64,000 nucleotides of DNA, taken from the NCBI RefSeq assembly GCF_028858725.1, contig NC_084768.1, forward strand, positions 1,905,853 through 1,969,852, written 5' to 3'. This document shows positions 1 to 682 of this stretch, in pieces. How positions within the stretch are numbered: position 1 is the stretch's first letter; each line of letters begins with the position of its first letter. The position numbers and the translations under genes are program-made. The DNA comes from Colius striatus (Eukaryota; Chordata; Aves; Coliiformes; Coliidae). The notes beneath the pieces were generated by a model, which did no database searches, was not told the origin of the DNA, and worked only from the letters and a program-made list of their open reading frames with translations.

Positions 1-682
1 CAACTACACATAGATATTGTCCATCCATCTTACCCAACAGAGGTTGAGTATAATTCAGCCATCCTATCCCTCTATTCTCCACATTCCACCAACTGATTCC
101 TTCCTCGATCCTGTCCCACAATCCTTGAGGTCCCATTTTCCACCATTTAACTTGAACCAGGGCTTCACATTCTCTTTGTGTAGTAAATGCGCAGTTTATC
201 CTCAAGGGTGGGCCATCCCACATATCCATTGAAGCTATTTTTGGTATTACTTCTACTCCCTCCTGAATCGGGGACCAAGGTACTACTCTCAAATCTATTC
301 GCTTATAATCAAAATTTTCCTGAATTAATACCAAACACATGTACACTCCCGCTTCTCCTAACGTTAAATTAGTCAATTGCAAGGTAACATTTCCTTTTTG
401 GGTATCCTTATTCCAAACAATAACAATACTTGCAGTCAATCTGGTTTGTCCTTGTTTCCAAATCGCAATTATTTCCTCGGCTCCAGCTCCCTGGTCATCA
501 GTAATGTCACAGGTTAAATTGACATCCATCCCTTCCATAACAGTAACCACAGGTTCTGTAACAGTGACAAATACAAATCCATTGACCGATACCATTTTCA
601 ATAATATCAACAGTACAACAGTTAAGAATGCTGTTTGGCTCGAAATATCATTCGTGTGGGGGATACCACTTGGGTTTCCCAT
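1..682 (-). CDS. Env-position open frame with signal peptide and two Ig-like domains (3' end off window)
   Basis: The frame starts at the ATG at 682-680, overlaps the last 61 bases of pol, as env normally does, and stays open for 227 codons to the window edge. Residues about 18-29 are strongly hydrophobic (signal peptide or anchor). Two immunoglobulin-like patterns follow. Domain 1 has Cys58, Trp75 and Cys116, ending in a canonical F-strand motif GEAGVYMC. Domain 2 has Cys164, Trp180/181 and Cys225, ending in KMDGQYLC. Cys-Cys spacings of 58 and 61 fit the Ig fold, and several N-glycosylation sequons are present. No furin site, fusion peptide or CXXC motif is seen in the visible part. It could be a captured host Ig-superfamily gene, or an unusual Env surface subunit with Ig-like topology. 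The Ig reading is from motif spacing only. Confidence 0.7.
   Translation of the reverse strand, partial: MGNPSGIPHTNDISSQTAFLTVVLLILLKMVSVNGFVFVTVTEPVVTVMEGMDVNLTCDITDDQGAGAEEIIAIWKQGQTRLTASIVIVWNKDTQKGNVTLQLTNLTLGEAGVYMCLVLIQENFDYKRIDLRVVPWSPIQEGVEVIPKIASMDMWDGPPLRINCAFTTQRECEALVQVKWWKMGPQGLWDRIEEGISWWNVENRGIGWLNYTQPLLGKMDGQYLCVV

Follow-up and report, generated by a model that had tools for sequence, protein, structure and literature searches.

The usual view of retroviral envelope proteins (Envs) is that their variation keeps to a fixed plan of a surface (SU) and a transmembrane (TM) subunit. At the env place of the crocodilian endogenous retrovirus (ERV) CrocERV31, a three-domain nectin3 sequence of the immunoglobulin (Ig) superfamily (IgSF), ~76% identical to the alligator protein, replaces env, according to the accessible portion of that report (PMC4299795). 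The gamma-herpesvirus protein De2 (viral PD-L1) is likewise a virus-borne B7-like Ig protein; in the part of the source available, it appears as a recognizable PD-L1 capture by a DNA virus and a cell-surface glycoprotein outside any fusion spike, and it shows that viral PD-L1-type ligands work (PMC9514091). For avipoxviruses, the shearwaterpox paper lists Ig-like domain proteins with the canarypox equivalents CNPV079, CNPV081, and CNPV166, and in a term count the string "retrovir" was absent from its accessible text (PMC5390406). We analyzed a 64,000-nucleotide window of the genome of the mousebird Colius striatus (contig C12, positions 1905853 to 1969852, within a 1.21-Gb assembly), together with the sequence to its left. 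From the letters of the window alone, an initial annotation had noticed two Ig-like domains encoded in the env position of an ERV. We confirm that Ig domains occupy the env slot of this ERV. In contrast to CrocERV31, the mousebird module is fused to a complete Env, has no close known donor, and occurs in viruses of many birds.

The env frame runs on the minus strand from an ATG at window position 682 down to position 2. As the initial annotation stated, this ATG overlaps the end of pol, sitting 61 nt inside a pol frame whose stop is at 622, and the frame is open for 227 codons in the window. Left of base 1, where that annotation had proposed to look, the frame does not end in a simple anchor; it extends to C12:1903865 (L001 and L031; 889 codons, in a stop-to-stop frame of 944 amino acids) and runs into an SU, a furin-type site, and a real TM subunit. 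Residues 1 to 35 (578..682, the first 61 nt overlapping pol) comprise the start codon, an N-terminal extension, and the expected hydrophobic leader, recognized by eye. They are followed by Ig1, a B7-like V-set domain (residues ~36 to 134; 281..577) with a Cys58-Trp75-Cys116 core and an FDYK motif; Ig2 (135 to 245, of which residues 135 to 227, at 2..280, precede the window edge); Ig3 (246 to 345); SU (365 to 671); the furin-type RKKR (672 to 675); and TM. The cysteines predicted for two Cys-Trp-Cys domains (Cys58, Cys116, Cys164, and Cys225) were placed by script, and Trp75 and Trp180 were read off the script output; the count of two did not stand, since a third domain, Ig3 (Cys269 and Cys322), lies left of the window.

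Profile searches in Pfam and PDB and shuffle tests were used to evaluate the three domains. Both a significant profile match and a Cys-Trp-Cys core, the marks of the Ig superfamily, were found for Ig1 and Ig3. Ig1 matched the Pfam V-set family (E 1.8e-9; 38.2 bits, cut-off 26) and "ig" (E 1.5e-8), and on sequence grounds chance resemblance to Ig is excluded for this domain; Ig3 matched "ig" (7.1e-9) and I-set (2.8e-8). Ig2 is assigned as Ig-like purely by pairwise tests: it scored z 6.7 against Ig1, with 0 of 1,000 shuffles as high, and its L039 allele scored z 10.6 against the host V exon L063 (0 of 500 shuffles as high). Ig1 and Ig3 (z 2.1) and Ig2 and Ig3 (z 0.9) had no clear relationship by shuffles. 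In PDB, Ig1 found CD276 (4.2e-9, a sum of four weak domain matches) and PD-L1 (1.8e-6) with phmmer, and CD276 (6.6e-7), PD-L1 (3.4e-5), and PD-L2 (3.2e-4) with a profile; the profiles for these searches were built from five (Ig1) and six (Ig2) close rows. The similarity to PD-L1 lies in one 40-residue stretch, KGN...L...AGVY.C...DYKRI.L. Ig1 thus seems nearest to B7-type V domains, which we treat as a lead and not as membership in the B7/PD-1 ligand family.

A close host donor for Ig1 was not found among 40 V-set exons compared, of 150 listed; the best were L063 (21.2 bits) and L065 (18.9 bits). By recognition we take L065 and the locus L094 to be HHLA2-like, HHLA2 being a B7-family gene. L094 (C1:114080500-114085500, minus strand) is a host locus of V-C-V organization. 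HHLA2 was rejected as the source of the whole module, because z did not exceed 4.1 when its C and V2 exons were compared with Ig2 and Ig3. The initial annotation had left a choice between host-gene capture and a divergent receptor-binding subunit. Host capture is not supported, the best of the 40 host exons compared reaching 21.2 bits. A divergent retroviral surface glycoprotein with Ig domains is upheld, because a real TM subunit follows in the same frame.

Several features of gamma-type Envs such as those of murine leukemia virus (MLV) and the syncytins were found: the position after pol, the signal region and membrane anchor (both by eye), the furin-type site, and syncytin/MLV-like TM homology. 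TM carries QNRMALDMLLLREHGVCGYLSKRIDHCC, matches TLV_coat (2.5e-7, Pfam) and Syncytin-2 (1.7e-5), and contains the segment QNRMALD, within QNRMALDMLLLREHGVC, which resembles an immunosuppressive domain (ISD). Residues 350 to 727, which hold SU and the first part of TM, had no Pfam match. Profile searches matched the N-terminal part to Ig families and the TM part to Env families, and not the retroviral SU without Ig that had been named as the contrary outcome. Unlike gamma-type Envs, the mousebird Env has three N-terminal Ig domains and a CX9CC spacing after the ISD-like segment instead of CX6CC, and the 22 cysteines of residues 1 to 727 form no C-x-x-C. The CXXC motif is also missing from alpharetroviral Envs, as stated in the portion of the review consulted (PMC9967133), so its absence does not decide gamma-type membership. 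From its sequence, this env is best called gamma-like and divergent, and we file it no closer than that. Ovex1 was considered as the same thing and rejected: the accessible text of its description does not contain "immunoglobulin" and gives its third open reading frame (ORF3) as without CWLC, CKS17, and C(X)6CC motifs (PMC2717909).

The mousebird genome holds many related copies. A protein search gave at least 154 matches (150 of 201 candidates scored), and those listed reduce by hand to 114 places on 25 contigs. Many Ig-Env copies stand in arrays on small contigs, so they are not independent insertions; contig C39, with 17 places, may be the W chromosome, judging from its numbering and size. 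L001 and L003 are open through the whole piece of residues 1 to 727, and the other 28 of the 30 fetched loci have at least one stop when read straight on; the stop-to-stop frame of L003, on C39, is 949 amino acids, compared with 944 for the window copy. An annotated C. striatus protein, P0032, is 100% identical over all 497 residues at C8:34304423. Two natural deletion forms were also seen: L040 (C162) has Ig1 and a 20-residue Ig2 stub ahead of SU, and L091 (C39:40585100) retains 57 N-terminal residues of Ig1 adjoining the final 25 of Ig3.

A separate genome search with TM (150 of 1,725 candidates scored) was examined for an Ig match lying up to 4.5 kb upstream in the same orientation. Among these best 150 of 1,725, an upstream Ig match accompanied 107 of the 113 TM copies with at least 86% identity, 0 of 15 at 70 to 77%, and 0 of 22 at 62 to 64%. 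The Ig module tracks one Env lineage. The Ig-less Envs L032, L034, and L036 have a short signal peptide after which SU starts at once. They resemble the Ig-Env in SU (44 to 66% by aligned piece) and TM (63 to 77%) and differ in lacking the module and in belonging to another pol lineage (integrase identity 37 to 41% for L034 to L036, and 44% over 57 residues for L032). Residues 352 to 727 of the Ig-Env align with the L034 Env at 52% identity over 384 columns. Because this alignment begins just past the L034 signal peptide, the module stands before a complete SU and not in its place.

Other ERVs of the same genome were noted in passing. At C13:22108500-22111500 (L037, positions 585 to 2462), gag matrix and p30 parts of a related ERV are fused in frame to a C2 domain and two WW stretches, which we take by recognition, no tool having named them, to look like SMURF; a TM piece follows in another frame. 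We read this as a second capture of a host gene within the Env lineage. L083 to L086 and L093 are ERVs with pol 51 to 53% identical and a different Env frame of 479 amino acids (436 in L093), which has CWIC and mostly CX6CC by eye and is present in several similar open copies.

The Ig-Envs are not confined to the mousebird. An Ig-less Env query returned 40 proteins, the named ones from birds, and 22 of these matched at least one of the three Ig-domain profiles; several of the 40 lack part of the N terminus, which leaves their Ig domains unscorable. Three domains are present in proteins of Colius, Pipra, Serinus, Zosterops, and Hirundo and in one further protein, with Ig1 truncated by the model start in P0032, P0008, and P0036. 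Prinia, Melospiza, Oenanthe, and Motacilla and one further protein have two, Acridotheres has Ig1 and a partial Ig2, and Manacus, Catharus, Myiozetetes, Strigops (kakapo; Ig1 1e-8), and others have one. Tryptophan-rich motifs are conserved across four aligned bird modules. Most relatives whose TM is complete have CX9CC, the emu protein P0034 among them (exceptions, P0009 and P0030), and a regular-expression search of the whole or partial proteins found no C-x-x-C in 39 of the 40, P0031 having one. On an SU-TM tree of 22 rows (18 of the 40 proteins plus L001, L032, L034, and L038), rooted on the emu Env with a very long branch, Ig presence or absence needs two changes and Ig number (0 to 3) needs nine.

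For integrase, the Ig virus shares 66% and 62% identity with the L081 and L082 proviruses and 37 to 41% with the L034 to L036 pol, while a 95-residue TM core is 84% and 78% identical to L036 and L034 and 66 to 69% to L082 and L081. Because the integrase and TM identities point in opposite ways, Env has been exchanged between pol lineages by recombination. Synonymous (dS) and nonsynonymous (dN) divergence was estimated in simple pairwise comparisons of 15 copies with L001 as reference. Over a 519-codon 3' pol piece, dS was 0.13 (L023) and 0.18 (L029). Ig2 plus Ig3, compared with L023, L029, and L039, gave dS 1.26 to 1.83, dN 0.14 to 0.17, and dN/dS 0.08 to 0.13, values that are near saturation and come from three copies that may share one old divergence. 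The low pol dS beside the high Ig2/Ig3 dS indicates at least two Ig-Env alleles under purifying selection, recombined onto similar backbones, and between subfamilies Ig2 and Ig3 are, by these ratios, under purifying selection. We make no case for diversifying selection on Ig2: dN/dS is near 1 in some close pairs (L011, 1.19; L022, 1.16), but synonymous counts there are tiny.

The module also has homologs in poxviruses. A profile built from four module sequences gave 12 matches at E 0.1 or better among 1,609 candidates: five proteins, of birds or unnamed, that group with ERVs or are unplaced, one that groups with pox, and six named pox proteins, from Shearwaterpox (SWPV1-183, SWPV2-ORF155, and SWPV2-ORF074), Crowpox (CRPV-108), Finch poxvirus, and Cheloniid poxvirus 1. 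The closest known family, the avipox three-Ig proteins (SWPV1-183, SWPV2-155/CNPV166, and CRPV-108), has the same three domains in the same order with significant homology (31 to 42% identity over 97 to 100%; SWPV1-183, 42% over 97%, E 1.9e-113). SWPV2-ORF074, which is without Ig3, is 63% identical to the window module. Unlike the Envs, the avipox proteins stand alone: SU and TM are absent, and the chain stops at Ig3 or after a short tail. As a query against the mousebird genome, SWPV1-183 gave at least 126 matches (121 of 232 candidates scored), at ERV places by eye. Two canary proteins, P0043 and P0049, contain the module but no SU. An env-type leader is present in P0043, and we read both as probable ERV fragments. 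Five viral-contig scans (with P0001, TM, integrase, and two pox proteins) found no relatives, and a protein search with P0001 alone gave no matches, under length limits that exclude full-length Envs.

A tree of 20 modules (13 ERV modules with two or three domains and 7 pox; unrooted) placed the pox proteins in one clade (100/99), sister to the manakin (Pipra) ERV (97/96), with the ERV lgnA3 (94/84), Hirundo (82/74), and Zosterops (94/94) next outward. The SU-TM tree has Pipra, the lgnA3 ERV, and Zosterops as a group (96) inside the Ig-Envs, the Hirundo module not being included there. On a quick tree of Ig1 only, which included two host exons, the pox proteins fall together (98) with Pipra, Manacus, Myiozetetes, the lgnA3 ERV, and the Catharus group. 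By the approximately unbiased (AU) test, a grouping of Pipra, the lgnA3 ERV, Zosterops, and Hirundo without pox was rejected (p 0.0039). When four pox leaders were compared with ten ERV leaders, three of the four were homologous to ERV leaders: Cheloniid pox scored z 14.3 against Manacus (0 of 1,000 shuffles) and 11.9 against Pipra, Finch pox 10.1 against Manacus, and Crowpox 10.4 against Catharus. The lgnA3 ERV leader and several others had little or no similarity to pox leaders. At the level of these scores, some pox and manakin-type leaders are homologous.

Taken together, the data are explained by an endogenous gamma-like bird retrovirus whose env places a three-Ig module between the signal peptide and the mature N terminus of an otherwise complete SU; this SU ends at RKKR, with a gamma-like TM fusion subunit behind it. 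The module would form an independently folding head at the spike tip. Its partner would be a surface protein of the host, probably on leukocytes, in the B7/checkpoint class. Displayed on virions and on infected cells, the head could attach to immune cells and interfere with their signaling, and this contact may also serve the spike in attachment. Poxviruses would have taken the module from a manakin-type retroviral env and used it as a secreted immune modulator. As a whole, this combination of an Ig-headed gamma-like Env, immune-surface binding, and passage of the module to poxviruses is moderately probable in our judgment. The broader proposition, that bird retroviruses have a modular spike with 0 to 3 Ig heads and that avipoxviruses and related viruses (including one under the name Cheloniid poxvirus 1) gained the head horizontally from a retroviral env and use it alone as an immune-surface-binding module, we hold to be fairly likely. 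Several observations weigh against this account. Ig2 had no Pfam match at 0.1 and no PDB Ig match with its six-sequence profile; AlphaFold models were poor and uninformative both for the 227-residue window protein (predicted local distance difference test [pLDDT] 44.6) and for Ig1 alone (all beta, pLDDT 60.3). The Ig1 fold search gave 1,353 matches at E 10 and none at E 0.001; most of the top 50 were beta proteins of carbohydrate-binding or TNF-like type, with E values of 0.04 and weaker, and three Fab-entry chains among these 50 (7sgm_A, 6w9g_A, and 6w9g_C; 137 to 139 residues) could be either Ig chain or antigen and were not used. The likeness to B7 is weak and could reflect V-set similarity in general, and Ig number varying from 0 to 3 implies that the module is dispensable for some Envs. 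As to the transfer, the grouping of Pipra and lgnA3 without pox was not rejected (AU test, p 0.083), the AU-test groups were picked after tree inspection, the two host exons on the Ig1-only tree are long branches that give no clean root, and the SWPV1-183 leader reached z at most 3.8 against ERV leaders.

Because the pox proteins form one clade beside the manakin ERV, the simplest direction of transfer runs from retrovirus to poxvirus and is, on these trees and leaders, a likely one. That a retrovirus instead captured an avipox three-Ig gene ahead of its env would suit the many poxvirus Ig proteins (nine canarypox Ig-like genes are named in the accessible text of PMC5390406) and an unrooted tree in which pox and ERV modules each occupy one side of a branch. 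We consider it unlikely, given that the pox rows attach beside the manakin ERV, within one of two ERV groups that also appear in the SU-TM tree, that some pox leaders resemble a manakin-type env leader, that in the window copy the start of the env leader overlaps pol, and that the kakapo Env has an Ig1 relative. Parallel capture of the same, now unrecognized, host three-Ig gene by both viruses is a further alternative. Host-gene capture is known for both virus kinds, a three-Ig V-C-V host gene exists in the mousebird genome (the HHLA2-like L094), and the canary P0043 and P0049 models hold the module without SU; nevertheless, the HHLA2-like C and V2 exons are without clear match to Ig2 or Ig3, no recognizable cellular donor appeared among the 12 module-profile matches from 1,609 candidates, and a common leader and nesting beside Pipra would be unexpected, leaving this reading very improbable. 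For the module's function, a poxvirus needs no retroviral entry receptor and gains from an immune ligand, which argues that the module binds a host surface molecule, and lymphocyte receptors are the target suggested by the likeness of Ig1 to B7. The module might instead be mainly an attachment or receptor-binding head that sets tropism through an adhesion-type IgSF partner, with no immune modulation. It sits at the SU N terminus, where gamma-type Envs carry their receptor-binding domain according to the consulted portion of PMC9967133, and modules recombine and change in number like entry heads; yet the same module occurs in poxviruses without Env, where attachment to a retroviral receptor is useless, and Ig-less relatives retain their own full SU, so we regard this as possible but doubtful. 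The variable Ig number among related Envs would fit a dispensable anti-antibody shield or spacer with no specific partner. Against this, purifying selection between subfamilies is strong on Ig2 and Ig3 and tryptophan-rich motifs are kept across the four aligned bird modules, which makes a shield or spacer highly unlikely.

The remainder of the window provirus also lies on the minus strand. The pol frame (622..4149) is open stop to stop for 1,175 codons and encodes reverse transcriptase (RT), RNase H, and integrase, with a protease region by position (Pfam matches RVT_1 1e-28, RNase_H 1.6e-21, rve 6.2e-17, and MLVIN_C 1e-14, the integrase having an MLV-type C-terminal domain). From ORF lists, the gag region (4150..5497) is broken into separate frames in this copy; the frame at 4150-4302 contains, by eye, the zinc-knuckle-like CAFCRQIGHWKNEC, and a 207-residue frame at 4466-5089 is without Pfam match. 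A candidate primer binding site (5474..5491), which begins TGG 6 nt past the long terminal repeat (LTR), was found by eye. The 5' LTR (5498..6000) has TG...CA ends, and its 3' partner lies beyond the window (L031, 2092-2595). The LTRs, of 504 bp, are identical at 490 of 504 positions with one gap. Avian substitution rates are near 2e-9 per site per year, and 13 substitutions over ~503 LTR sites at that rate place the provirus at roughly 6 to 7 million years. A target-site duplication beside this LTR pair was looked for and none was found, which, with TG..CA ends, suggests recombination or rearrangement at one end. Elsewhere in the window, at 7315-9536, frames of a trypsin-like serine protease (by eye) are split by a minisatellite-like repeat encoding LGLPNTPLTL units.

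In the open-access literature, no paper on Ig-bearing bird retroviral Envs or on avipox Ig proteins of retroviral origin was found among the matches listed, as judged by title and start of abstract. The mousebird locus and its relatives present a multidomain IgSF module that stands ahead of a complete SU, is kept under selection, varies in number, and has apparently been passed to a DNA virus family. In bird databases, the Env proteins with one to three Ig domains are mostly named uncharacterized, and several entries so named, or named Ig-like domain proteins, could be taken for host immune genes. An origin is also suggested for the avipox Ig proteins, which the accessible text of the avipox paper lists without one (PMC5390406). 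It can now be tested whether bird retroviruses and poxviruses aim the same protein at one host immune receptor.
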